Shown: positions 15,390 to 28,786 of the stretch, piece after piece
Layout: each line of letters begins with the position of its first letter
How positions within the stretch are numbered: the stretch's first letter is position 1
From: Natronococcus sp. A-GB7
GTDB taxonomy: Archaea > Halobacteriota > Halobacteria > Halobacteriales > Natrialbaceae
Reading direction: 5' to 3'
NCBI RefSeq assembly: GCF_029688865.1
Contig: NZ_JARUKV010000001.1
Span: 62,001 to 126,000 of the forward strand
Length of the DNA: 64,000 nt
Notes under the pieces: generated by a model
What the model was told of the DNA's origin: nothing
What the model saw: only the letters and a program-made list of their open reading frames with translations
Databases searched by the model: none
Program-made: the position numbers and the translations under genes

Positions 15390-16562
15390 ATGTCCGATGC
15401 GACAGCTTCCCGTTCCGCAGGTCGGCTCGCGAGGATTCGCGACCACGTAGAGAAGGGGATGAGCCGCCGCGAGTTCTTCCGGACCCTCGCCACCGGCGGG
15501 TACGCCCTCGGTATGGCCCACTTTCTCGGCGTCGAGGACTTCCTCGCGGCCGACGACGGCGAGGTCCCGGTCGTCACCGCGCTCGTCCGGAGCGATCCCG
15601 ACGACCCCTGGTCGCTCGAGGAGCGCACGGAGTACGTTCCCGCGGACTGGTACGCTGCCGTCGAGAAGGCTATCGAGCTGAACGACCGCCTCTCCCGGGC
15701 CGCGTTCACCGGCTATCTCGGCAGCGCGGTCGTCCCCGAACGGTACGACGACGGCGGTGCGGCGGTCTCGGTCGGCGTCTCCGGCGACCTCGATTCGATC
15801 CGGGACGCGGTCGGCGACCTCTCCGAGGGCGTCTCCCTGAACGTCCGGGAGATCGTCGACGTCGAGGCGGTCGAGGACGGTTCCGACCGCTACGAGCCGC
15901 GGATGGCCGAATCACTCACCTCGAGCCAGGTCCCCGCTGGAATCGCCTGCGAGACGCCCTCGAGCCTTGCGACGCTCGGGCCGGCCATGTTCGATCCCGA
16001 AAGTCAGCAACGGTACTTCGTCACGGCCGAGCACGCCTTCGAGAAGCAAGACGAGGTCGATGGGGCGTTGCTCTCGCTCCCGCTCTCGGCCGAGGAGCCC
16101 GTCGAACTCGGCCCGGTCAGACACGCGTATCCCGTCGAGGACGTCGCCGCCATCGAACCGAACGGCACCCTCGAACCGTCGACGTGGATCGACGCCCCGG
16201 AGCCGGTCCGCGTGCGCGGCCAACTGACACGCTGGGGCCTCGCCGATCTCATCGCCCGGGACGAACGCCTCGAGAAGGTGGGCGCACTGACGGGCCACAC
16301 GACCGGTCGGGTCCAGGGGTTCGACGCGGTGACCTGTTTCACCGACGACTTCTGTCGCCGGGGTCAGATCCGCTGGGGCGGCGAGATGGATCTGACCGAC
16401 GGCGACAGCGGCTCGGTCAGCTACTACGACGATCCAGGGGGTGAGGAGGAAGACGTCCTCGTCGCCGGTTTCAACAACGCCCGCACCTGGTGGCCCGGCC
16501 AGAGCTACGTCTGGGGGGTCGCCGCCTACCGCGTCACCGAACGGTACGGTTATCACTTCTAA
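15390..16562 (+). CDS. Tat-exported trypsin-like (chymotrypsin-fold) serine protease homologue
   Basis: A 390-residue protein. A twin-arginine motif (SRREFF, R26-R27) and a hydrophobic stretch to residue 47 predict Tat export. The second half has the order of a chymotrypsin-fold triad: H215 in YFVTAEHAF, D251 in VEDVAAIEP (compare trypsin 'nDIAli'), and S340 in DLTDGDSGSVS. The middle region is otherwise unique to this protein. No disulfide-forming pattern is seen except C316 and C322. Calling it an active protease rests on the three short motifs. A 36-nt segment around the GDSGS codons is duplicated at 16925-16960. It precedes a small membrane protein gene by 1 nt. Confidence 0.72.
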   Translation: MSDATASRSAGRLARIRDHVEKGMSRREFFRTLATGGYALGMAHFLGVEDFLAADDGEVPVVTALVRSDPDDPWSLEERTEYVPADWYAAVEKAIELNDRLSRAAFTGYLGSAVVPERYDDGGAAVSVGVSGDLDSIRDAVGDLSEGVSLNVREIVDVEAVEDGSDRYEPRMAESLTSSQVPAGIACETPSSLATLGPAMFDPESQQRYFVTAEHAFEKQDEVDGALLSLPLSAEEPVELGPVRHAYPVEDVAAIEPNGTLEPSTWIDAPEPVRVRGQLTRWGLADLIARDERLEKVGALTGHTTGRVQGFDAVTCFTDDFCRRGQIRWGGEMDLTDGDSGSVSYYDDPGGEEEDVLVAGFNNARTWWPGQSYVWGVAAYRVTERYGYHF

Positions 16563-16563
16563 C

Positions 16564-16833
16564 ATGGAACGCGATACCACGCACGGATCCCGGATGTCCG
16601 ACGATCACCCCTCCCGGCTGCGCCGCGCCGTCGCCAGCCTCGCGGCAGCCATCGGCGTCGGGACCCGCATCCTCGTCGACGCGCTCGTCGTCGGGCTCTG
16701 GGTCCTGTTTCTGACGCTGCTGTTTCTCTCGACGAACTGGCCGCGGTGGCTGTTCTATGTCCTCCTACTGGGTGGGGTCGGCGTCTACGTTCAGTTCACC
16801 GCCTGGTGGGGCGGGTCGACGTCGGGGTCCTGA
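16564..16833 (+). CDS. Small membrane protein, unknown
   Basis: An 89-residue protein with a short polar N-terminus and two hydrophobic helices (about residues 37-57 and 62-78) ending WWGGSTSGS. It starts 1 nt after the protease stop, so the two are probably cotranscribed. An in-frame ATG at 16594 is an alternative start. No family recognised. Confidence 0.65.
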   Translation: MERDTTHGSRMSDDHPSRLRRAVASLAAAIGVGTRILVDALVVGLWVLFLTLLFLSTNWPRWLFYVLLLGGVGVYVQFTAWWGGSTSGS

Positions 16834-16855
16834 CCGCGACGCGAGGCGGGTTGCC

Positions 16856-16930
16856 TCAGTTATTCTCGTCCTCGGCGACGGCGAGTTCGAGGACGAAACT
16901 CGAGGACGAGACGATGTCGCCGAGTGGATC
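16856..16930 (-). pseudogene. Remnant of the 3' end of an ADP-dependent phosphofructokinase gene
   Basis: Read on the minus strand, 16859-16921 translates to GDIVSSSSFVLELAVAEDENN then stop. This matches GDIVSASSFVLELAVASGR at the C-terminus of the kinase encoded at 22698-24071. About 44 of 48 nucleotides agree. Upstream (16931 on) the similarity ends and sequence from the protease gene begins. Only about 20 codons remain, so it is not functional. Confidence 0.7.
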
Positions 16931-16960
16931 TGACCGACGGCGACAGCGGTTCGGTGAGCT
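16925..16960 (+). repeat. 36-nt copy of the protease active-site segment
   Basis: It matches 16387-16422 at 34 of 36 positions, covering codons for DLTDGDSGSVS. Here it is joined to the kinase remnant and followed by unrelated sequence, outside any intact gene. Confidence 0.85.
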
Positions 16961-16986: not shown

Positions 16987-17967
16987 TCACCGGTCGTCCG
17001 GGATCCGGGTGTGGGCACCGATCAGGGCGCGCTCGAGGTCGAACCCGCTGATTCTGGCTCCCTCGTCGACGATCGAGCCGCGAACGGTCGTCGACCCGAG
17101 GTACGCTTCCGGGAAGATAACCGAGCGTTCGACGTCGGCGTCGACGAGGGTCGCGTCCGCCATCACGTGGACGTCGTCGCCGACGCTGCTCTCCCGAACG
17201 GTCGCCGACTCGGCGACGTGGGAGTCGCCGTCGAGGTGCCAGGAGACGGCGTCGAGGTAACTTCCCCTGGTGCCGATGTCGTACCACGCACCGTCGAACG
17301 TGTAGGCGTAGGTGGGTTCGCGGTCCTGGAGCCACTGGACGAACCAGCCCGGCTCGTCCGGGTCGTTTCCCGCTTCGAGATAGGGGTCGAACAGGGACAG
17401 CGTCTCACCGGGGAACGCGTAGCAGCCGATCGAGACGAGCGAACTCTCCGGTTCGTCCGGTTTCGCCTGGAAGCCGACGACGCGTTCGCCGTCCAGTTCG
17501 AGCACACCGTACGACGTAGCCCGCTCCCGCGAGCAGACGTCGTAGGCGGCGATCGCCGGGCCCTCGCATCGGTCGAAGTACTCGAGGAACTCCTCGAGCG
17601 CGAAGTCGAAGAGATTGTCGCCCGCGATCACCAGCAGGTCGTCGTCGAGTCCTTCGCGGTCGATCAGCTGGGCGAGCGCGCCGACGACGCCGAGTTTCTC
17701 GTCTTCGCGTTCGGTCTCCTCGACGGACAGGCGCGGTTTGTCGTACGGTCCGTCCTCGAGGTGAGCCTCGAAGTCGGGGGCGAACCGTTCGTTCGTGCTC
17801 ACGTAGATCTCGTCGATCCGATCGAGGGTCTCGAGTTCGGCGTAGATGCGATCGATGACCGTCGTCTCGCCGAGCGGGAGCAACATCTTGGGGCGGTGTC
17901 TCGTGATCGGCCACAGGCGAGTTGCGTAGCCACCGGCCAGAACGACAGCGGTGGTTGGGCCCGTCAT
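16987..17967 (-). CDS. Sugar nucleotidyltransferase (glucose-1-phosphate NTP transferase type)
   Basis: A 326-residue enzyme. Its N-terminus, VVLAGGYATRLWPITRHRPK, is the nucleotide-binding signature of sugar-phosphate nucleotidyltransferases, and VIAGDNLFDF holds the metal-binding Asp. From about residue 245 there are left-handed beta-helix repeats (VAESATVRESSVGDDVHV). It would activate glucose-1-phosphate or a similar sugar phosphate to an NDP-sugar. It starts 1 nt after the pgk stop, in the order gap-pgk-transferase. The product may supply the trehalose synthase encoded just upstream on the other strand. Confidence 0.88.
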   Translation of the reverse strand: MTGPTTAVVLAGGYATRLWPITRHRPKMLLPLGETTVIDRIYAELETLDRIDEIYVSTNERFAPDFEAHLEDGPYDKPRLSVEETEREDEKLGVVGALAQLIDREGLDDDLLVIAGDNLFDFALEEFLEYFDRCEGPAIAAYDVCSRERATSYGVLELDGERVVGFQAKPDEPESSLVSIGCYAFPGETLSLFDPYLEAGNDPDEPGWFVQWLQDREPTYAYTFDGAWYDIGTRGSYLDAVSWHLDGDSHVAESATVRESSVGDDVHVMADATLVDADVERSVIFPEAYLGSTTVRGSIVDEGARISGFDLERALIGAHTRIPDDR

Positions 17968-17968
17968 T

Positions 17969-19177
17969 TCAGGCCTCTCCCTCGAGTACCTCGACGCCGA
18001 CGAGCGGCTCCCCGGTGAGCGCGCGAACGTACGCGCCGCCGGCGACCGTGACGCGCGAGAAACCGTCCTCGTCGAAGTCGTACAGTTCGACGACGCGGGC
18101 GGTGTCGCCGCCGCCGACGACCGAGAAACAGTCGGTCCCGGCGATCGCCGAGACGACCGTCACGGTCCCGTGGGCGAACCGCTCGTCCTCGAAGACGCCG
18201 AGTGCGCCTTTGACGAACACCGCGTCGGCGTCCTCGACGACGTCGGCGTAGCGATCGGCCGTCTCGGAACCGACGTCGAGGAACGGTCGGTCCTTCTCGA
18301 CTCTCTCGAGCGACGCTTCCGCGCGTTTGCCGTCGTCCTCGTAGGCCAAGTCGGTCGGGAGCGACAGTCGGTCGCGGTAGGCATCGAGGGTACGCTCGAG
18401 TCGATCACGATGGTCGTCCCACTGGTGGTCGAAAAGCGACGTCTCGGCGGCGTCGTAGCCCACGTCGTACCCGTCCGCCCGCAGGAAGAGTTCGCCGACG
18501 ACGCCGCCGAGACAGAACCGGTCGACGGTGTCGTCGAGTCGCTCGATGATCGGGATGACGTCCTCGGCTTTCGTCCCGCCCAGGACCATCGTGACCGGAC
18601 CGTCGAACTCCCGCTCCCGGACGGCCGTGATCGCCGTGTACTCCTGTTCCATCACGCGCCCCGCGTACGCGTCCATGACGCGCGGAAAGCCGACGATCGA
18701 GGCGTGGGAACGATGCGCGGCCGAGTACGCATCCCCGACGTAGGCGTCGAACTTCGGGGCGAGCGTCCGAACGAAGTCCGTCTCGGCTTTCACGTCCGGC
18801 TCTTCCTCGGGTAACTCCTCGTCGCACATCCGGGCGTTCTCGAGGAGGAGCACGTCGCCCGACTCGAGGTCGTCGATAGCTGCGAGCGCGTCCTCGCCGT
18901 ACGTGTCTGCGACGAACTCGACGGGGTGATCGAGGTGGTCGGCGAGGATCTCGGCGTGTTGCTCGAGCGAGACGAACGTGTCCCGGCCCGGCCGACCCTG
19001 GTGGGCAAGCAGGGCGACCGCGTGGTCGTCCGCGAGCAGTTCCCGGATGGTTTCGGCGTGGCTTGCGAACCGGCGACTGTCCTGTGCGATCCCGTCCTCG
19101 ACGGCGGCGTTGACGTCGATCCGGACGAGCAGGCGTCGCCCAGGTTCGAGGTCGTCGATAGTTCGAAACGTAGTCAT
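17969..19177 (-). CDS. pgk: Phosphoglycerate kinase
   Basis: A 402-residue kinase converting 1,3-bisphosphoglycerate and ADP to 3-phosphoglycerate and ATP. Family blocks present are LVRIDVNAAV, RRFASHAETI, LLAHQGRPG, LLLENARM, DAYVGDAYSAAHRSHAS, TMVLGGTKAEDVIPII and VVGGGDTA. The usual C-terminal 'GGGAsLE' is VAGGAYVRALTG here, as often in haloarchaea. The gene sits 29 nt after gap and 1 nt before the nucleotidyltransferase, forming a three-gene operon. Confidence 0.97.
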   Translation of the reverse strand: MTTFRTIDDLEPGRRLLVRIDVNAAVEDGIAQDSRRFASHAETIRELLADDHAVALLAHQGRPGRDTFVSLEQHAEILADHLDHPVEFVADTYGEDALAAIDDLESGDVLLLENARMCDEELPEEEPDVKAETDFVRTLAPKFDAYVGDAYSAAHRSHASIVGFPRVMDAYAGRVMEQEYTAITAVREREFDGPVTMVLGGTKAEDVIPIIERLDDTVDRFCLGGVVGELFLRADGYDVGYDAAETSLFDHQWDDHRDRLERTLDAYRDRLSLPTDLAYEDDGKRAEASLERVEKDRPFLDVGSETADRYADVVEDADAVFVKGALGVFEDERFAHGTVTVVSAIAGTDCFSVVGGGDTARVVELYDFDEDGFSRVTVAGGAYVRALTGEPLVGVEVLEGEA

Positions 19178-19206: not shown

Positions 19207-20277
19207 TCAGTGGACGACGGTTCGCCCGGCATCGATGCTCTCCGACTCGGCCGCGACGTGTTTCGCGAGTTTGATCATCTGGTTCGAGAAGCCGTACTCG
19301 TTGTCGTACCAGGCGAGCACTTTCACGGTGTCGTTGGCTGCGACCATCAGTGATTCGAGGTCGACGTACGAGGCAAAGGGCAACCCGACGATGTCCCGCG
19401 AGACGATCTCGTCGTCGGTGTAGCCGAGGACGCCGGCCAGGTCGTCGTCGGCCGCCGCCCGGATCGCGTCGATCACTTCGTCCCGCTCGACGTCTTCCTC
19501 GATGTTGACGGTGATGTCGGTGATCGAGCCGTTCGGGACCGGTACCCGCATCGCCATCCCCTCGAGTTTGCCCTCGAACTCAGGGAGCACCTCGCTGGTC
19601 GCACCGGCCGCCCCGGTCGTCGTCGGGACGATGTTCTCGGCAGCGGCGCGGCCGCGCCGTCGCTTGGCCATGGGGCCGTCCACGAGCCCCTGGCTTCCGG
19701 TGTAGGCGTGGACGGTCGTCAGGAGTCCGGAGACGACGTCGAACTCCTCGTCGAGGACCTTCAGGACCGGCGCGACCGAGTTCGTCGTACAGGAGGCGTT
19801 CGAGAGGACGTCGTCGCCGTCGTACTCCTCGTGGTTGACGCCGTAGACGAACATCGGTACCTCCTTCTCGCCCTTCGGCGGCGCCGAGATGATGACCTTG
19901 TCCGCGCCTGCCTCGAGGTGCTGTGCAGCCTCGTCACGGGTCCGGAACAACCCCGTCGCTTCGAAGGCGACGTCGACGTCCAGTTCGTCCCACGGGAGTT
20001 CCGACGGCTCGCGCTCGGAGAGCAACCGGAACTCCTGGTCGTCCACCAAGAGCGTGTCACTGCGGCGAGAGACGCCGTCGAGCCGGCCGTGGACCGAGTC
20101 GTAGGTGAGCAGATACTCCATGTCGTCGTCGTCCATCACGTCGTTAATCGCCACGATATCGACGTCGTCGTGGGTCAGCGACGCACGGAGGAGACAGCGT
20201 CCGACCCGTCCGAAGCCGTTGAGCCCGATTCGAAGCGTTTCGCCGGTTTCCGAGCCGCCGTTCGTCTTCGCACTCAT
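19207..20277 (-). CDS. gapI: Type I glyceraldehyde-3-phosphate dehydrogenase, phosphorylating
   Basis: A 356-residue enzyme of the bacterial/eukaryotic type. It has the Rossmann loop IGLNGFGRVGR, the catalytic Cys C163 in NASCTTNSVAP, and the C-terminal WYDNEYGFSNQM. Haloarchaea often carry this type I form for catabolism, in addition to an archaeal type II form for gluconeogenesis. Here it heads an operon with pgk. The ATG at 20275-20277 is chosen because upstream codons are atypical. An AAATTT element and the shared CGCAGGGGG motif lie 14-30 nt upstream. Confidence 0.96.
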   Translation of the reverse strand: MSAKTNGGSETGETLRIGLNGFGRVGRCLLRASLTHDDVDIVAINDVMDDDDMEYLLTYDSVHGRLDGVSRRSDTLLVDDQEFRLLSEREPSELPWDELDVDVAFEATGLFRTRDEAAQHLEAGADKVIISAPPKGEKEVPMFVYGVNHEEYDGDDVLSNASCTTNSVAPVLKVLDEEFDVVSGLLTTVHAYTGSQGLVDGPMAKRRRGRAAAENIVPTTTGAAGATSEVLPEFEGKLEGMAMRVPVPNGSITDITVNIEEDVERDEVIDAIRAAADDDLAGVLGYTDDEIVSRDIVGLPFASYVDLESLMVAANDTVKVLAWYDNEYGFSNQMIKLAKHVAAESESIDAGRTVVH

Positions 20278-20418: not shown

Positions 20419-21660
20419 ATGCATCCTCCCTCACTCCCGAACCGGTCGATCGAGGCCTACGCCACCGTGACGGGAGACGACCGCCTCGAGCGACTCCGCG
20501 AACTCGCCGAGACGCTGTCGGACGTCCGGATCCTGCACGTCAATTCGACTGCGACGGGCGGCGGCGTCGCGGAGTTGCTCCGCTCGATCGTGCCGGTCTG
20601 TAACGACCTCGGCATCGACACCGACTGGCTCGTCATGGACGCCGACGACGACTTCTTCGAGGTCACGAAGGCGGTCCACAACGGCCTCCAGGGGAGCGGC
20701 GAGCCGTTGACCGACGAGATGAAAGCGACCTATCGCGAGGTGACAGAGCGGAACGCGGCCGAGATCGAAGACGAGTACGACCTCGTGCTGGCTCACGATC
20801 CGCAGCCGCTGGGCATGCTCGAGCGACTCGAAGAACGGCTCCCGGACGCGCCCATCCTCTGGCGATGTCACGTCGATCTCACCGACTCGGTCGACGACTA
20901 TCTCGCGTTCGTCTCGGAGTACACCGATCCGATCGATCACGCGATTTTCAGTCGCTCGGAGTACGTGGCGATCGACACGCCGGCGACGAGCATCGTCTAC
21001 CCGTCGATCGACCCGGTGACGGAGAAGAACCGCTCGCTCGAGGACGAAGAGCTGGCGGCCGAACGCGACCGGCTGGACCCGCTCTCGTTCGACGCGCCGG
21101 TGGTGACGCAGGTGTCCCGTTTCGACCCGTGGAAGGATCAGTTCGGGACGCTCGAGGCGTACCGAACCGCCACGGAGGAGGTGCCGGAGCTCCAGCTGGC
21201 GCTGGCCGGCGGGATGGCTGGGGACGATCCGGAGGGACTGGAGCTGTACGAGCAGGTCGCCGAGAAAGCGGTCGGTGATCCGGACGTTCACGTCCTGACT
21301 GACCTCCCAGACACGACGATAAACGCCCTCCAGCGGCTGTCGGACGTCGTCGTCCAGAAGTCACTGCGCGAGGGGTTTGGCCTCGTCGTCTCGGAGGCGC
21401 TCTGGAAGCGCACGCCGGTCGTCGGCTCGACGGTCGGCGGGATCCCGCTCCAGGTCGAGGACGGCCGGAACGGCTACCTCGTCGATCCCGATGACGCGAC
21501 GGGTGCTGGCGATCGGATCGTCGCTCTTCTCGAGAACGACGAGCGCCGTCGATCGTTCGGCGACAGTGCCCGGGAACACGTCCGGGAACGGTTCCTGCTG
21601 CCCAGACAGCTGGTGGATCTCCTCGAGATTTTCGTCGACGCTGTAGAACCCGATTCCTGA
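20419..21660 (+). CDS. treT: TreT-like trehalose synthase (GT4 family)
   Basis: A 413-residue GT-B glycosyltransferase. N-terminal blocks ILHVNSTATGGGVAELLRSIVP and LAHDPQPLGML, WRCHVDL, and C-terminal SLREGFGLVVSEALWKRTPVVGSTVGGIPLQ match trehalose glycosyltransferring synthases, which join NDP-glucose and glucose to trehalose. EGFGLVVSEA is the E-x7-E donor site. Divergent from gapI with 141 nt between them. The NDP-sugar enzyme across the divergent operon could supply the donor. Trehalose fits an osmolyte or storage role in a halophile. Confidence 0.88.
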   Translation: MHPPSLPNRSIEAYATVTGDDRLERLRELAETLSDVRILHVNSTATGGGVAELLRSIVPVCNDLGIDTDWLVMDADDDFFEVTKAVHNGLQGSGEPLTDEMKATYREVTERNAAEIEDEYDLVLAHDPQPLGMLERLEERLPDAPILWRCHVDLTDSVDDYLAFVSEYTDPIDHAIFSRSEYVAIDTPATSIVYPSIDPVTEKNRSLEDEELAAERDRLDPLSFDAPVVTQVSRFDPWKDQFGTLEAYRTATEEVPELQLALAGGMAGDDPEGLELYEQVAEKAVGDPDVHVLTDLPDTTINALQRLSDVVVQKSLREGFGLVVSEALWKRTPVVGSTVGGIPLQVEDGRNGYLVDPDDATGAGDRIVALLENDERRRSFGDSAREHVRERFLLPRQLVDLLEIFVDAVEPDS

Positions 21661-21763
21661 GACGGTCAGGAATCGGTACGAGAAGCCGCGACGGCACCGA
21701 CGCCACCTATCTGACCCCCACACAGTTATGCGCGGAGACGGTGAAGCAACGCAGGACGATCCC

Positions 21764-22657
21764 ATGAGCCGGTTCATCGAATCGATACTGATACCGACCG
21801 ACGGCAGCGACGGGGCACTCGCAGGAGCCAAACGCGGGATCGCGCTCGCGTCGCAAATCGACGCGGACGTCCACGTACTGTCGATCGTCGAATCCCGATT
21901 CCAGGCGTCGGATCTCGACGAACTGGATCTCCTGTCGTTCGAAGAGAACGCCGAGGAGGCAGTCGAGGCAGTCGCGCAACTGGCCACGGACCACGACGAC
22001 GAAATAGCCGTCACGACCACGATCAGGGAGGGGACTCCGTTCCAGTCGATCAGAGAGTACGCCAGTCGACGCGAGATCGACGTCATCGCCATGGGGACGA
22101 AAGGCCGAACGGGTCTCGACAGAGTGCTCCTCGGCAGCGTGACCGAGAACGTCCTCCGAACGGCCCGGACCCCCGTACTCGCGGTTCCACCGAACCCCGA
22201 CGAACCCGCAATCGCCGACGTCCCGTTCGATCGATTTCTCTTGCCCACGGACGGCAGCGACGGTGCGGCGATCGCAACCGATTGGGGGATCGAACTCGCG
22301 AGCCGACTCGAGTCGTCGATACACGCGCTCTACTCGATCGACACGAGTCCGCTCGGTGACGAGCGAGAGAGCGACGAACTCCTCGAGGCTCTCGAGAGCA
22401 GGGGCGAAGCGGCACTCGACGCGGTCCGGGAGCGCGGCGAGGACGTCGGGGTGACCGTCTCGGGATCGACCGTGACCGGCGCTCCGGTGAGGGTGATCCC
22501 CTCCTACGCGACCGAGAACGACGTCGACCTGATCGTCATGGGGACCCACGGCCGGACGGGGATCGGCCAGTGGTTCCTCGGGAGCGTGACCGAAAACGTC
22601 GTCCGCCAGGCAGACGTGCCGGTGTTTTGCGTGCCGGTCAGCGCCCAGGAGCCGTGA
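21764..22657 (+). CDS. Universal stress protein, two UspA domains
   Basis: A 297-residue protein with two tandem UspA domains, each ending in the ATP-binding signature G-x2-G-x9-G-S-(V/T) (GTKGRTGLDRVLLGSV and GTHGRTGIGQWFLGSV). Each domain starts with a '(L)IPTDGSDGA' strand. Residues 1-140 and 145-297 are the two copies. The ATG at 21764 is preferred; a further ATG lies 36 nt upstream. Its position between trehalose synthase and phosphofructokinase suggests a stress or energy sensor role, which is inference only. Confidence 0.88.
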   Translation: MSRFIESILIPTDGSDGALAGAKRGIALASQIDADVHVLSIVESRFQASDLDELDLLSFEENAEEAVEAVAQLATDHDDEIAVTTTIREGTPFQSIREYASRREIDVIAMGTKGRTGLDRVLLGSVTENVLRTARTPVLAVPPNPDEPAIADVPFDRFLLPTDGSDGAAIATDWGIELASRLESSIHALYSIDTSPLGDERESDELLEALESRGEAALDAVRERGEDVGVTVSGSTVTGAPVRVIPSYATENDVDLIVMGTHGRTGIGQWFLGSVTENVVRQADVPVFCVPVSAQEP

Positions 22658-22697: not shown

Positions 22698-24071
22698 CTA
22701 TCGGCCGCTGGCCACGGCGAGTTCCAGGACGAAACTCGAGGCGGAGACGATGTCGCCGATGCCGACCGTTCCTGCCGGTTCGTCGACGACGCGATTGGGG
22801 CAAGCGGCGACCGTGGGAGTCTCGAGGACGCCGTCCTCGGCCGTCTTGCCGACGTGATCGGCCAGCAGTTCGATCGCTTCCCGGCCCAACTCCGAGCGCT
22901 CGTACTCCAGCCCGGTTTCGAGGTCCTCGGGTTCGGAGATGTGTCCCAGCGCCGCCTTCGTCGCGGCGTTGACGGCGGAAAACTCGAGCCCCCGTCGAAG
23001 CGCCTCCGGCGAGTGGTACGACTCCATCACGGCCAGATGGTACTCCATCGCGTGTAACTGCAGACAGTCGACGCCGAGTTCCTCGCGGACCGCCTCGAGC
23101 ATCCGGTAGTGGTCGAGGATCTCCTCGGGTTCGAACGGGGTCGCCTCCGACGGCGGCTCGTCGACGGCGTCGATACCCGCGTCGTCGTGCAGCATCGTCA
23201 GTTCGTGCGTATCGGCGCCGACGACGTTCGCCTCCGGCAGGATCCACTCGTACATGCTCTCCCTGAGGTCGTCGTCGTGGGTGACCGCGTACTCGACGTG
23301 GACGTCGACGTCGCTCCCGGACCGGAGCCGATGGATGACGTCTCTCGCGTGACGGTGGGTCTCCTCGTACCCCTCTTCGACGTGGTCGGGCGTGAGGTTG
23401 TGATACCCCGCCAGCAAGGCGCCGTCGACGTCCTCGCCGACCTGATCGATTTCCTCGTCGAGATCCCCCGCAGAGAGGTCGAACTCCGGCGGCCTCGAGG
23501 CGGCGATGAACCGGGTGTCTTCCGGCGCGGTCACGCCGAAAAACTCGTCTCCCTCTCTGAACTCGAACACCCAGTTGATCTTCGTCCGATCCGTGTTGAC
23601 GGCCTCGGAGAGAGGGACGTGGCGCACCTGCCCGTCCTCGACGGTCGGATACCGCACCTCGTCGGGGTGGTCGAACATCGAGAGCTGTCGCTCCGAAATC
23701 AGGTAGGTGTACGTGATCGGCGCCGTTCCCAGCGCGGTGAGCAAGTTCGTCATGATCCCCGCCTGACCGCCCATCTGCTGGCTGTCGGGCTCGAGTTCCG
23801 CCTCGAGCGTCGTCGCGAACTCGTCGGCCATCGCGATCTCGTCTCCTCGGCCGGCGGCCATCGTGTGTGCGATCGCCGCCGCGAGTTCCCGTTTCGACGT
23901 CAGCGGACTCGGCGGGACGTCCGCACCGGGATCGGTCGGTCGCTCGAGGAACGACTCGAGTTCCTCGTCGACCCGAACGATCGCGTCGACGTTCGCGTTG
24001 TAAGCGACGAATACGGGTAACTCCTCGAGTGCGGCGACGTCCGCCTCCAGTTGGGCGTGGGCGTCCTGCAT
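22698..24071 (-). CDS. pfkC: ADP-dependent phosphofructokinase/glucokinase
   Basis: A 457-residue ribokinase-fold kinase of the ADP-dependent family. It has NANVDAIVR at the sugar site, GGQAGIMTNLL, YHNLTPDH, and the C-terminal catalytic motif GIGD with D440. It phosphorylates fructose-6-phosphate (and possibly glucose) with ADP as donor. Most halophilic archaea are thought to use a modified Entner-Doudoroff route, so its presence with GapI, Pgk and aldolase points to a working EMP-type glycolysis. Divergent from ppsA with 105 nt between them. A fragment of a second copy lies at 16856-16930. Confidence 0.9.
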   Translation of the reverse strand: MQDAHAQLEADVAALEELPVFVAYNANVDAIVRVDEELESFLERPTDPGADVPPSPLTSKRELAAAIAHTMAAGRGDEIAMADEFATTLEAELEPDSQQMGGQAGIMTNLLTALGTAPITYTYLISERQLSMFDHPDEVRYPTVEDGQVRHVPLSEAVNTDRTKINWVFEFREGDEFFGVTAPEDTRFIAASRPPEFDLSAGDLDEEIDQVGEDVDGALLAGYHNLTPDHVEEGYEETHRHARDVIHRLRSGSDVDVHVEYAVTHDDDLRESMYEWILPEANVVGADTHELTMLHDDAGIDAVDEPPSEATPFEPEEILDHYRMLEAVREELGVDCLQLHAMEYHLAVMESYHSPEALRRGLEFSAVNAATKAALGHISEPEDLETGLEYERSELGREAIELLADHVGKTAEDGVLETPTVAACPNRVVDEPAGTVGIGDIVSASSFVLELAVASGR

Positions 24072-24139: not shown

Positions 24140-24176
24140 AACTTATTGTCGTCCGCGTGGTCCGAGTGACAGGCCG

Positions 24177-26456
24177 ATGTCACGAGACTCGTTCGTCCGA
24201 TCGCTAGAAGGGTTGAGCGGCGACGACACCGACGCCGTCGGCGGCAAGAGCGCGAACCTCGGCGAACTCGCCGACCTCGACGTCCCCGTCCTGCCGGGAT
24301 TCACGACGACCGCGTCGGCCTACGACTACTACGTCGAGGAGACCGGCATCCACGCCGAGATCGAGTCGCAACTCGAGGGGCTGGACGTCGACGACGTCGC
24401 GGACCTCCAGCGACGCGGCGAGCGGATCAGGCGCACGATTTCGGAGGCGTCGATGCCGCCGGCACTCGAGTCGGTGATCCGCGAGCGGTACGTCGAACTG
24501 GGCGACGAACTCGGGATCGACGATCCGGAGGTCGCGGTCAGGAGTTCCGCGACCGCGGAGGACCTCCCGGAGGCCTCCTTCGCCGGCCAGCAGGAGACGT
24601 TTCTCAACGTCGCCGGCGAGACGGAACTGCTCGAGTCGATCAAACACTGTTTCGCCTCGCTGTTTACCGACCGCGCGATCGTCTACCGCGAGAACAACGA
24701 CTTCGACCACTTCGACGTCAAACTCGCCTGCGCGGTTCAGAAGATGGGCCGGGCGGACCTGGCCTCGTCGGGCGTCCTGTTCACGCTCGACCCCGATACG
24801 GGGTTCGACGAGGTCGTCACGATCGAGGCCGCCTACGGCTTCGGCGAACCGATCGTCCAGGGCGTCGTCGACCCCGACCGGTACGTCGTCTTCAAGCCGA
24901 CGACGGGTATCGTCGAGAAGGAGTGCGGCGGCAAGGCCCAGCGGATGGTCCGCCGAAACGGGGGCACCAAACTCGAGTCGGTGCCGGAGGAAAAACGAGC
25001 GGAGTTCGCGCTCTCGGACGATCGAATCCGCGAACTGGCACAGTACGCGACCCGGATCGAGGACCACTTCGGGACGCCACAGGACATCGAGTGGCTCGTC
25101 GACGGGGACCTCGACGAACTGTTCGTCGTTCAGGCCAGGCCCGAGACGGTCCACGGGGCAGCCGAGGGGAACGTCCTCCGCACGTACAGCCTCGAGGAGA
25201 CCGACGAGCCACTGCTCGAGGGGGTTGCGATCGGGAACGCGATCGGAAGCGGCACCGTTCGCGTGCTCTCGGACCACCGGGAGATGGATCAGGTCGAGGA
25301 GGGCGACGTCCTCGTCACCGAGATGACCGACCCCGACTGGGTGCCGGTGATGAAGCGCGCGAGCGCCATCGTCACCGATAGAGGGGGCAAGACCTCTCAC
25401 GCCGCGATCGTCTCCCGCGAACTGGGCATCCCCGCGATCGTTCGGACCGGAGCGGCGACGGAGTCGCTGTCGAACGGCGATACCGTCACCGTCGACTGCG
25501 CGGCCGACACCGGTCGCGTCTACGAGGGCGAACTCGAGTACGACGTCACCGAGGAGGTCGTCGACGACCTCCCCACAACCGACACCGACGTCAAGTTGAT
25601 CCTCGGCGATCCCGGGCGGGCGTTCGCGCTCGCGAACCTCCCCGTCGACGGCGTCGGCCTGGCCCGTGAGGAGTTCATCGTCACCTCCCACGTCGGCTCC
25701 CACCCGCTCGAGTTGCTCGAGCGCGGCGAGGAGGAGCAGTTCGTCGATGCCCTCCGGACGGGGATCGCGAAGATCGGCGCCGCGTTCTACCCCGACGAGG
25801 TCATCTTCCGGCTCAGCGACTTCAAGACCGACGAGTACCGCAACCTCGAGGGCGGCTGGAAGTACGAACCCGAGGAGGCGAACCCGATGCTCGGCTGGCG
25901 CGGCGCCTCCCGGTACTACGACGAGGCGTTCCGGGACGCGTTCCGCCTCGAGTGCGAGGCGCTCCGACAGGTTCGCGAGGAGGTTGGACTCGACAACGTC
26001 ATCGTGATGGTCCCGTTCTGCCGAACGCCCGAGGAGGGCGGGCGCGTGCTCGAGATCATGGACGAGTACGGCCTCTCGAGCGACGAGATGGACGTCTACG
26101 TGATGGCTGAACTCCCCGCGAACATCGTGCTCGCGGATCGGTTCGCGGATCTGTTCGACGGGTTCTCGATCGGCTCGAACGATCTCACACAGCTGACGCT
26201 GGGCGTCGATCGCAACTCGGAGAAACTCGCGCCGCTGTTCGACGAGACCGACGACTCGGTGACGCGGTCGATCAGTTCGCTCATCGAGGAGGCCCACCGT
26301 CACGACCGACCGGTCGGCATCTGCGGCGACGCGCCCTCGACGATTCCGGAGTACACCGAATTCCTGCTCGAGGAAGGCATCGACTCGATTTCGGTCTCGC
26401 CGGACGTCGCGGTGGAGACGATGCTGACGGTCTCGGAGTTCGAATCCTCGGAGTAG
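24177..26456 (+). CDS. ppsA: Phosphoenolpyruvate synthase
   Basis: A 759-residue enzyme converting pyruvate, ATP and water to PEP, AMP and phosphate. In order: the N-terminal ATP-grasp domain (VGGKSANLGEL, VRSSATAEDLPEASFAGQQ), the phosphohistidine domain with H408 in GGKTSHAAIV, and the C-terminal PEP/TIM-barrel domain with DGVGLAREEFI, FRLSDFKTDEYRNLEGG, NPMLGWRG, SIGSNDLTQL and GICGDAPS. The ATG at 24177 fits the MSRDSFVRSL start and lies 105 nt from divergent pfkC. Gluconeogenic counterpart to the kinase next door. Confidence 0.96.
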   Translation: MSRDSFVRSLEGLSGDDTDAVGGKSANLGELADLDVPVLPGFTTTASAYDYYVEETGIHAEIESQLEGLDVDDVADLQRRGERIRRTISEASMPPALESVIRERYVELGDELGIDDPEVAVRSSATAEDLPEASFAGQQETFLNVAGETELLESIKHCFASLFTDRAIVYRENNDFDHFDVKLACAVQKMGRADLASSGVLFTLDPDTGFDEVVTIEAAYGFGEPIVQGVVDPDRYVVFKPTTGIVEKECGGKAQRMVRRNGGTKLESVPEEKRAEFALSDDRIRELAQYATRIEDHFGTPQDIEWLVDGDLDELFVVQARPETVHGAAEGNVLRTYSLEETDEPLLEGVAIGNAIGSGTVRVLSDHREMDQVEEGDVLVTEMTDPDWVPVMKRASAIVTDRGGKTSHAAIVSRELGIPAIVRTGAATESLSNGDTVTVDCAADTGRVYEGELEYDVTEEVVDDLPTTDTDVKLILGDPGRAFALANLPVDGVGLAREEFIVTSHVGSHPLELLERGEEEQFVDALRTGIAKIGAAFYPDEVIFRLSDFKTDEYRNLEGGWKYEPEEANPMLGWRGASRYYDEAFRDAFRLECEALRQVREEVGLDNVIVMVPFCRTPEEGGRVLEIMDEYGLSSDEMDVYVMAELPANIVLADRFADLFDGFSIGSNDLTQLTLGVDRNSEKLAPLFDETDDSVTRSISSLIEEAHRHDRPVGICGDAPSTIPEYTEFLLEEGIDSISVSPDVAVETMLTVSEFESSE

Positions 26457-26621
26457 TTCCGTGGCTCCGTTTCGGCCGGATGGGTGCGAGGGACTGGAGT
26501 GACGAATCCGCCTCGAAAGCGAACTGCCGGTACGGCCTATCTGCACCGGAATTCGAGCAGGGGCCGTGAGAACCGGAGCATCAGACAATGCGACGCCAAC
26601 AACCGCGGATACCGTCGTTGG

Positions 26622-26912
26622 CTACGCGACGAGCCCAGTGTCGATTGCGAGGGCGGCGAGAAGAACGAGACCGACGCCGCCGATTCGAACGGCTCCTGCG
26701 AGGACCGCTCGTTCCGCCGGAACCGATTCGGCGACGGCAAGTACGCTGAAAAACCAGCCCGCGGTCATCCAGCCGGAGTAACCGCGAACGAACGACAGCG
26801 TGAAGCAGGTAGCTGCCAGCAAAAAGAGGAGCCCGTTGGCCGGCCATCCGGCCGGCTCCTCGAATATCCACGCGAACCAGCGCGACCGTGACTCCGTTTT
26901 CGAACTCGCCAT
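26622..26912 (-). CDS. Small membrane protein, unknown
   Basis: A 96-residue protein with a polar N-terminus (MASSKTESRSRWFAWIFEEP) and three hydrophobic helices covering residues 25-95. A TATA-like TATAAAA (26938-26944, read as TTTTATA on the minus strand) lies about 28 nt upstream of the ATG, so the mRNA is probably leaderless. This also supports the start. The 165 nt between ppsA and this gene hold nothing recognisable. Confidence 0.65.
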   Translation of the reverse strand: MASSKTESRSRWFAWIFEEPAGWPANGLLFLLAATCFTLSFVRGYSGWMTAGWFFSVLAVAESVPAERAVLAGAVRIGGVGLVLLAALAIDTGLVA

Positions 26913-27131
26913 TGGTGGACAATTTGTGTCAGCAAGGTATAAAACCGGTTCGTCGAAGATCGACTCCCGGTTCAGTGAGTCGTGTTCCGACGATTGAACC
27001 ACTCGGACCGGCTCGTACACGACGCAGCCTCGAGCCGATCGTACTCGAGACAGCCCCGGTAGACGTCGCTGGTCCTCGATTCACCGAACGCGATCCGTCG
27101 ACCGCGAGCGATGCGCAAAACAGGGCTCGTC

Positions 27132-28001
27132 CTAGGCGAGCGCGTCCTCGAGGCGGTCGATCAGTTCGTCGTTGCCGACGTGTAGCGGCACGCGGTCGTG
27201 GAGGTCGTCGGGCTCGACCTCGAGGATCGACTGGCTCCCGTCCGAGGAGCTGCCGCCCGCGGTTTCGACGAGGTGCGCGATGGGGTTCCCCTCGAACTGC
27301 AGGCGGAGCTTGCCGCGGGGATTACCCTCGAGGGCGGGGTAGGCGAAGATCCCGCCGTAGGTGAGCACCTGGTTGACGTCGCCGATCATCGCGCCGCCGT
27401 AGCGGAGCTTGTGGTCCGGATCGGACTCGATCTCGCGGACGTAGGCCTCGAACTCGTCCGACCAGTGAGGGACGCGACCACCGAAACCGTAGACGAGGGG
27501 GTCCTCGGGGAGGCTGACGTCCTCGTCGACGACGCTGCGGTCGTCGTCCGTCAGCTCGTACTTCTCGACGACTCCGTCCCGGGCGAGGGCCATCGTCGTG
27601 ATCGGCCCGTAGAGCACCCAGCCCGAGGCGACGAGCGAGGTTCCCGGCGCGGGGAGGGGCTCGTCGTAGATCCCGAACACCGTCCCCATCGTGTTGTTCG
27701 ACTTGAGGTTCGAGGAGCCGTCGAGGGGATCGACGCCGACCGAGAGGCCGCCCTCGTCCCCGCAGTCGATCGTCTCGAGGCGCTCCTCGCTCGCGTACTG
27801 GCAGACCCCGTCGATCGACGAGATGCGGTCGGCGAGCAGGTCGTCGGCCCAGACGTCGGCCTCGGCCTGGGTCTCACCGCTGGGGTTCTCCGCGTCGGCG
27901 TCCTCTCGTCGGCCGACGAGGCCGTCCCTGATCTCGGGCGCCGACCCCGCGATCGTCTCGACCACCTCGTCGACCGCGCGACCGTCGTCGCGTCCGGTCA
28001 T
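27132..28001 (-). CDS. fbp: Class I fructose-1,6-bisphosphatase
   Basis: A 289-residue phosphatase. VGVDPLDGSSNLKSNNTMGTVFGIY is the metal-binding D-P-(L/I)-D-G-S-S signature (first part). LRYGGAMIGDVNQVL and GGIFAYPALEGNPRGKLRL are the substrate and C-terminal metal sites of the FBPase I family. It makes fructose-6-phosphate in gluconeogenesis. Its ATG overlaps the aldolase stop (27998-28001), so the two are translationally coupled. Paired with PfkC, the cell could run both directions of this step and would need regulation. Confidence 0.95.
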   Translation of the reverse strand: MTGRDDGRAVDEVVETIAGSAPEIRDGLVGRREDADAENPSGETQAEADVWADDLLADRISSIDGVCQYASEERLETIDCGDEGGLSVGVDPLDGSSNLKSNNTMGTVFGIYDEPLPAPGTSLVASGWVLYGPITTMALARDGVVEKYELTDDDRSVVDEDVSLPEDPLVYGFGGRVPHWSDEFEAYVREIESDPDHKLRYGGAMIGDVNQVLTYGGIFAYPALEGNPRGKLRLQFEGNPIAHLVETAGGSSSDGSQSILEVEPDDLHDRVPLHVGNDELIDRLEDALA

Positions 28002-28786
28002 TCCTCGAGGGCTGCGTCGGCGGTCTCCTCCTCGAAGATCACCCTCTCGAGGGCGTCGAGGATCCGCGTGGGGTTCTCGCGCTGCCAGACGTTGCGGCCG
28101 ACGGCCAGCCCCTTCGCGCCGGCGCTGACGGCGGACTCGACCGTCGAGAGGAACTCGTAGTCCGACGTCTTCGAGCCGCCGCTCATGACGACGTTCATAT
28201 CGCCTGCGGCCTTGCAGGCGTGTTCCATCGCCTCGGAGCTACCGGGGTACTTGACCTTCGCGATGTCGGCGCCCAGCTCGAGGCCGAGGCGGGTCGCGTA
28301 GGAGATGGTGCTCGGCTTGGTATCGTTTTTCAGCCCCTGGCCGCGGGGGTACGACCACATGACGACCGGGAGGTCGTGCTCGCGGGCGTCCTCCTGGACG
28401 TCGCGGAACTCCTCGGCCATCTCGACCTCGTGGTTCGAGCCGCCGTAGAGCGTGAAACCGATAGCGTCGGCGCCGAGTTCGGCCGCGTAGTCGACCGAAC
28501 AGTTTACGGCGGAGTCGTACTCGCCCATCCAGAGGTTCGAGGTGCCGTTTACCTTCAACAGGAGGTTGACGTCGTCCTCGTAGCTGGGGTAGTACCCCTC
28601 CGCGATCCCCTTCTGGACGGCCATGCAGGTGACGGCGTCGTGGGTCGCCGTCTCGAACACCGTCGACGGGTCGAGCTTCTCCGGGACGTCCTCGAAGTCG
28701 ACGGGACCGTGCTCGAGGCCGTGGTCCATCGCGAGAATCAGTGACTTGCCGTCGCGAACGATCGGAGAGTCGTCGATCGGAATCAT
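27998..28786 (-). CDS. fba: Class I (DhnA-type, archaeal) fructose-bisphosphate aldolase
   Basis: A 262-residue TIM-barrel aldolase. AMDHGLEHGP is the archaeal aldolase N-terminal signature, and ADIAKVKYPGS carries the Schiff-base lysine (K177 or K179). MSGGSKTSDYEFL and GLAVGRNVWQ form the phosphate-binding end. It splits or forms fructose-1,6-bisphosphate. A haloarchaeal TATATAT (28811-28817) sits 25-31 nt upstream of the ATG, predicting a nearly leaderless transcript with fbp. Confidence 0.95.
   Translation of the reverse strand: MIPIDDSPIVRDGKSLILAMDHGLEHGPVDFEDVPEKLDPSTVFETATHDAVTCMAVQKGIAEGYYPSYEDDVNLLLKVNGTSNLWMGEYDSAVNCSVDYAAELGADAIGFTLYGGSNHEVEMAEEFRDVQEDAREHDLPVVMWSYPRGQGLKNDTKPSTISYATRLGLELGADIAKVKYPGSSEAMEHACKAAGDMNVVMSGGSKTSDYEFLSTVESAVSAGAKGLAVGRNVWQRENPTRILDALERVIFEEETADAALEE

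Follow-up and report, generated by a model that had tools for sequence, protein, structure and literature searches.

A relict phosphofructokinase end in Natronococcus sp. A-GB7 as the probable left edge of a gene replacement that brought in a multi-gene cassette

In the genome of Natronococcus sp. A-GB7, a 105-base scrap without evident function joins the last codons of a phosphofructokinase gene (pfkC) to a short segment of a protease gene, which raises the question of how two such pieces came to lie side by side. The first-pass annotation had read the scrap as the scar of a duplication and deletion or of a gene conversion. The locus was analyzed in a stretch of 64,000 nucleotides (the window; contig NZ_JARUKV010000001.1, positions 62,001 to 126,000) belonging to a 4.88 Mb draft genome of 77 contigs, labeled G000. 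Nine Natronococcus genomes including G000 were compared, the other eight being aligned to the window with blastn; under the names that we assigned by inference, they include N. pandeyae (G001), N. amylolyticus DSM 10524 (G002), Natronococcus sp. A-GB1 (G004), the MAG CSSed10_265 (G005), and N. jeotgali (G006). We use "slot" for the interval from the protease and orf89 to the fructose-bisphosphatase gene FBP, and "cassette" for the gene series NT-PGK-GAPDH-TreT-Usp-PfkC-PpsA (Table 1). The slot is flanked on the left by a carboxyltransferase-like gene (PCC), the putative protease, and the small ORF, and on the right by FBP and then the class I aldolase-like gene FBA. A tRNA scan of the window returned 0 tRNA.

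Table 1. Coordinates of features around the scrap, in window positions.
Feature	Position	Strand	Basis or remark
Putative trypsin-like protease, left flank; the 36-nt piece belongs to its family	15390-16562	+	Named from its GDSGS motif alone
Breakpoint interval, change from species-tree to slot-tree site patterns	16466-16543		Four-species informative sites
orf89, small membrane-like ORF, within the proposed exchanged haplotype	16564-16833	+	96% to G004, 77% to G005, 78% to G002
Relict 3' end of the resident pfkC	16856-16923	-	Stop codon 16856-16858; ADP-PFK end
Junction TCGCCGA (TCGCCGATC in G004)	16917-16923		Common to pfkC and many proteases
Protease piece, a shortened form of the 155-bp piece of G004	16924-16960	+	Resembles the GDSGS segment of the protease
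NT, sugar-1-phosphate nucleotidyltransferase, first cassette gene	16987-17967	-	Pfam NTP_transferase, 3e-37; 87% amino acid identity to G020
PGK, phosphoglycerate kinase, cassette copy	17969-19177	-	Pfam search
GAPDH, glyceraldehyde-3-phosphate dehydrogenase, cassette	19207-20277	-	Pfam search
TreT-like trehalose synthase (GT4), cassette	20419-21660	+	Pfam TreT_GT1, 1.3e-49; NF041139 below cut-off
Usp, universal stress protein, cassette	21728-22657	+	Pfam search
Intact pfkC, ADP-dependent phosphofructokinase/glucokinase family, probable incoming copy	22698-24071	-	Pfam ADP_PFK_GK, 1.5e-97; trees; TIGR02045 below cut-off (223 vs. 408 bits)
PpsA, phosphoenolpyruvate synthase, cassette	24177-26456	+	TIGR01418, 1032 bits, above cut-off; 96% amino acid identity to G020
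Approximate right edge of the probable incoming DNA	26915-27131		Identity shifts vs. G020 and G002
FBP, class 1 fructose-bisphosphatase, right flank	27132-28001	-	NF006786, 479 bits, above cut-off
FBA, DhnA-type class I aldolase-like, right flank	27998-28786	-	NCBIfam matches examined below cut-offs

The scrap and its position in related genomes

When the whole G000 genome was searched for the 105 bases, 43 matches reached E ≤ 10. Leaving aside the match to itself, the best was the 3' end of the sole pfkC (92% over 50 bases, 46/50, E 4.1e-14), the second was the upstream protease (91% over 43-44 bases, E 8.9e-10), and the third reached an E of only 6.7e-5. Because both the pfkC end and the protease outrank this next match, the similarity lies above the genome background, against which the first-pass annotation had asked for it to be measured, and the composition given there for the scrap holds. 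The distances given there hold as well, with the intact pfkC 5.8 kb to the right and the matching protease stretch 0.5 kb to the left. The protein of the intact gene has no further match in the G000 genome. Chance similarity or a faulty assembly hardly deserves credence: the genome is in draft, which speaks for an artefact, but each half finds its counterpart as a top genome-wide match and the join recurs in G004, where the protease piece is longer.

The minus strand of the first half reads ...GDIVSSSSFVLELAVAEDENN followed by the stop codon, which corresponds to about the 20 last codons of an ADP-dependent phosphofructokinase. Outside G000, its best score was with the pfkC of G002 (93% over 60 bases); the match to the window's own pfkC is shorter (92% over 50 bases). 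As the scores of G021 (95% over 56 bases) and G121 (96% over 51) come close to that of G002, we argue for an origin from a resident pfkC by colinearity and not by score. The only slot gene of G002 and G005 is pfkC, intact and at the position of the scar, and the blastn alignments of both genomes to the window are unbroken up to 16923. The pfk part is therefore the 3' end of a gene formerly located here. The slot of G001 holds pfkC and PpsA, and those of G000 and G004 the full cassette. G003, G006, G007, and G008 have no slot genes, and in these genomes the left flank (to 16809-16845) and the right flank (from 27128-27142) enclose 7-85 bases. Comparing the junction in related genomes had been proposed in the first-pass annotation, and the intact pfkC at the locus, with the colinearity through 16923, indicates loss, which supports its suggestion that a second pfk once existed here and disappeared. 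Synteny shows that the ancestral order was protease-orf89-pfkC-FBP-FBA, as it still is in G002 and G005.

In xenologous replacement, a gene is expected to have a resident homologue at the same chromosomal place, and such a homologue is found in G002 and G005, and with PpsA in G001. A trace of the replaced gene is optional for such an event and decisive when present; here it takes the form of positions 16856-16923, colinear with the pfkC of G002 and G005. On this and the following evidence, we consider it likely that one pfkC replaced another here, that a multi-gene cassette came in with it, and that the scar is the left edge of this replacement.

Origin of the cassette

The copies of PfkC from G000 and G004 group in trees with those of G020, G116, G120, G125, and G123 (97/96 with protein, 100/98 with DNA), and those of G001, G002, and G005 form a separate group (100/99 with protein, 97/93 with DNA). 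A vertical history, in which the ancestor of the genus had the cassette and, apart from it, another pfkC, and its lineages lost different parts, appears quite improbable in light of these trees. It would agree with the wide occurrence in the family of cassettes beside the protease, which may make the arrangement old, and with an AU test at the protein level, where a single clade of the five Natronococcus slot PfkC was compatible with the data (p=0.154; the clade was chosen after inspection of the first tree). The same clade was rejected with DNA, however (p=0.001), as was a single clade of the PpsA of G000, G004, and G001 (p=0.018). The conflict between gene trees and species or flank trees that is typical of xenologous replacement is thus found with pfkC DNA and with PpsA, the protein test of PfkC being compatible with a single clade. 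Also against a vertical history, PpsA is 96% identical to that of G020 vs. 91% to that of the congener G001, whereas the PCC of the left flank shows the reverse, with 82% and 91%, respectively. The FBP+FBA tree of the right flank unites G000, G001, G002, and G004-G007 (100/99) and places G003 and G008 elsewhere; the rpoB tree unites six of the nine Natronococcus (98/94), not all nine.

Identity to G020 is 86% at 26457-26600, 94% at 26600-26915, 84.5% at 26915-27131, and 81% in FBP, and G002, 93.6% identical in FBP, is without a match over 24172-27131. The right edge is approximate, because 26457-26600 is likewise just 86% identical to G020. Within the spacer between PpsA and FBP, positions 26600-26915, which by eye seem to hold a short minus-strand frame at 26600-26913, seem to be part of the incoming block. 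By these trees and identities, the sugar cluster, intact pfkC included, is probably incoming DNA, a point that the first-pass annotation had missed. DNA of another genus would have brought all seven cassette genes, with a PfkC nearest to those of G020, G116, and G120.

The two pfkC 3' ends of the window, at 16874-16923 and 22710-22759, have the same orientation, as they would if the cassette were an element inserted site-specifically at the 3' end of pfkC and these ends its attachment repeats. We regard this as very improbable: all seven cassette proteins (7/7) match families other than recombinases, and the protease piece would be left unexplained. The right pfk copy, moreover, is internal to the cassette, since PpsA lies beyond it.

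Several further features of the cassette genes were noted. The genome contains a second PGK of the same type (G000:C7:94224-95420), 73% identical to the cassette copy and less than 7 kb from rpoB; seven other Natronococcus genomes have one PGK match each. In G004 (L034 8874-10086 and 11325-12440), the cassette TreT occupies two overlapping frames and PGK is short by about 28 codons, which may reflect decay of part of the cassette in that genome. G123 carries a cassette with an intact pfkC on its contig C2, outside the slot.

The protease piece and the junction

The putative protease gave no Pfam, NCBIfam, or PDB sequence match, and its GDSGS motif is invariant in 12/12 aligned proteases. The first-pass annotation had taken the second half of the scrap as copied from this neighbouring gene, and window positions 16925-16960 are indeed identical to 16387-16422 at 34/36 bases. 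When the 36 nt were compared with 33 aligned proteases, the window's own and seven others matched at 34/36, and those of G003 and G011 at 35/36; since these two match better, the neighbour does not stand out as the source of the 36 nt. G004 has the same order as the window, namely a pfk 3' end, a protease piece, and NT. Its piece is 155 bp long and homologous to window 16270-16424, with single-base gaps. G000 and G004 have in common the way in which the piece adjoins the NT end; both thus inherit one event, and the 36-37 bases of the window are an eroded form of the longer piece. A tandem second protease gene was considered and rejected, as no locus in the tblastn maps has more than one full protease.

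The G004 piece is 85% identical to the window protease, 84% to those of G001 and G003, and 81% to the protease of G004 itself. In a tree of 29 proteases, from which G018, G021, G023, G084, and the short piece of the window had been omitted, its best place was as sister to the nine Natronococcus proteases (63/0), which group without it at modest support (84/93). The piece encodes I at a residue that is V in all nine Natronococcus proteases and I in 22 of the 24 others; among the genomes nearest in the PfkC tree, G020 and G116 have V as in Natronococcus and G120 has I. A piece of 155 bp does not suffice to identify a donor. In other genera, the cassette adjoins the same protease, the protease and NT matches lying 281-371 bases apart in 11 loci and 666 bases apart in G020. 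For this reason, the protease piece probably came along with the cassette.

These comparisons bear on a purely local origin, in which duplication, gene conversion, or template switching would have placed part of the neighbouring protease gene beside a pfk remnant and no DNA came in. The orientation of the piece is that of the neighbouring protease, the window protease is among the few that carry the full 9-nt junction motif given below, and sisterhood of the G004 piece with the window protease was compatible with the data in an AU test (p=0.139), in keeping with the 34/36 identity and the best-tree place beside the Natronococcus proteases. Sisterhood of the G004 piece with the protease of G004 was nevertheless rejected (p=0.0045), at an identity of only 81% to that neighbour. 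The better match of G003 and G011 and the I in place of the Natronococcus V also speak against copying, and the adjacency of protease and NT in other genera explains the piece without a copying step. A recent local copy is accordingly an unlikely reading that keeps some residual weight, and fresh copying from the neighbouring gene is probably not what produced the 36 nt. Of the duplication and deletion or gene conversion first suggested, the loss of a pfk stands, and the derivation of the 36 nt from the neighbour is poorly supported.

At the junction, the motif TCGCCGA occurs in the corresponding column of 18/33 proteases; TCGCCGATC, in which the pfk part and the protease part of G004 overlap, occurs in 4/33, the window protease among them. 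The proteases of G020, G116, and G120 are without the 7-nt motif, and neither this motif nor the I/V residue links the piece to G020 or G116. Flush identity of at least 7 nt was found at 0.16% and of at least 9 nt at 0.02% of 200,000 random junctions in this window; these chance estimates (0.0016 and 0.0002) followed a microhomology that had been spotted post hoc. Homology-facilitated illegitimate recombination (HFIR) is characterized by 3-10 bp of microhomology where the illegitimate end is joined, a range that includes TCGCCGA(TC), although this motif was spotted post hoc and is present in only 18/33 proteases. At the other end a homologous crossover would be expected, and there identity places the edge only roughly, at 26915-27131.

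The replacement of the resident pfkC may thus have proceeded by recombination on the right side near FBP and, on the left, by an illegitimate joining of the resident pfkC 3' end to the protease piece across 7-9 nt of microhomology, at a cost of about 1.3 kb of the resident gene. A single step is proposed for this course; no uneroded junction was found among the genomes compared, and single-step and multi-step events both fit. Comparison with G004 shows that the protease piece, which probably arrived with the cassette, then eroded to 155 bp in G004 and to about 37 bp in the window.

Exchange of the slot and comparison with known systems

The two scar-bearing species, G000 and G004, are not sisters in the rpoB tree, where G002 and G004 are sisters (100/99), G000 groups with G005 (94/69), and the four form a clade (99/97). 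The FBP+FBA tree recovers the same four-species clade (100/98). In alignment segments of 400 columns, G004 is nearest G002 in 11/14 to the left, the exceptions (12000, 16356, and 16756) being nearest G000, and in 23/24 to the right, with one tie. Informative sites in the protease-orf89 stretch show where the pattern switches: up to 16466, 22 of 31 sites pair G000 with G005 and G002 with G004, four have the slot pattern, and five the third pattern; from 16543 on, 29/30 pair G000 with G004 and G002 with G005. By this switch, a block of about 10.6 kb that contains the scar and the cassette was transferred, or sorted, among these species. The scar haplotype may thus have been exchanged or sorted among Natronococcus lineages with a left breakpoint at the protease 3' end. 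G000 and G004 are 92-95% identical in the block and about 91% in the flanks, and since the two divergences are similar, the exchange was not recent.

Across the family, pfkC is present in 48/125 genomes, in a few of them in pieces. Among 47 named protease-anchored loci, the slot holds pfkC in 14 (one cut by a contig end), pieces in 2, and none in 31. The two loci with pfkC pieces alone are both of Natronorubrum bangense, with two pieces each, and among the 31 slots without pfkC, L214 and L225 contain other DNA. Where the slot holds pfkC, the adjacent fructose-bisphosphatase shares 81-95% identity with that of the window in 9/9 loci in view (one a fragment), five more such loci being out of range and the two N. 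bangense loci (78%) left out. In comparison, an identity of at least 75% was found in 6/31 slots without pfkC (Fisher p=1.8e-5, with kinship ignored and the 75% cut set post hoc); these six are perhaps slots that have lost pfkC. With more doubt than belief, we put forward that the protease-FBP interval is a family-wide slot that toggles ADP-PFK glycolysis, where cassettes arrive, swap as haplotypes, and decay, and where the FBPase allele co-travels, so that the enzyme and its gluconeogenic opponent would be one unit of exchange.

Other observations were made at these loci. Compared with the window's (27132-28001), the fructose-bisphosphatases of L199-L245 fall into two classes, of 77-95% and 60-70% identity. 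Natronorubrum bangense JCM 10635 carries the locus on both chromosome and plasmid (L204 and L205), identical over all 21170 bases (1-21170). PpsA pieces alone occupy the slot in L099, L098/L223, and L105/L231 (G053, G091, and G088), and likewise in G114, so that PpsA seems to have been lost repeatedly. In G113, the two PpsA pieces are on separate contigs, and the assembly may have split one gene.

Replacement by foreign homologues is usually argued from trees alone. Here, the relict, the protease piece, and a join shared by two species make the event readable from sequence and provide a marker of later exchange between species. The locus further suggests the movement of a metabolic block of several genes, instead of one gene, between haloarchaeal genera. 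Titles and abstract beginnings of the literature on Natronococcus phosphofructokinase transfer or haloarchaeal ADP-dependent phosphofructokinase did not describe this locus. A patchy occurrence of ADP-phosphofructokinase is noted in a part of one report, where it is present in some cellulose-using strains (AArcel1, AArcel7) and absent in others, with no treatment there of the gene's genomic position or of transfer (PMC10267330).

Known systems share parts of this arrangement. HFIR, for which the introduction of one paper gives a microhomology of 3-10 bp in most cases, resembles the course proposed here, with one homologous end, one illegitimate end, and a loss of resident DNA (PMC3240628). Excerpts of that paper also report junctions without homology in three of its own four E. 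coli clones, and concern bacteria with about 1 kb gained and 1 kb lost, whereas here an archaeon would have gained about 10 kb and lost 1.3 kb (PMC3240628). Ku-independent joining with deletions at short microhomology, called MMEJ, is described for a haloarchaeon, Haloferax volcanii, in sections of a further study, with 3-5 bp on laboratory plasmids as against the 7-9 nt on a chromosome here (PMC2700283). Additive HGT with replacement and displacement components, as outlined in part of a recent paper, likewise combines added genes, a replaced homologue, and a conserved neighbourhood, although in Aeromonas and not in a haloarchaeon, and a junction relict does not come up there (PMC11375855). 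Closest in kind is the replacement in haloarchaea of a resident gene, at its own site, by a homologue that stems from a different genus, which passages of a review describe for single genes or parts of genes and not for adjacent genes (PMC4500145); at this locus, a seven-gene block would have come in and a relict was left behind. The process is most likely one already known, homologous replacement across haloarchaeal genera, in an unusually legible case that apparently involves a block of genes.
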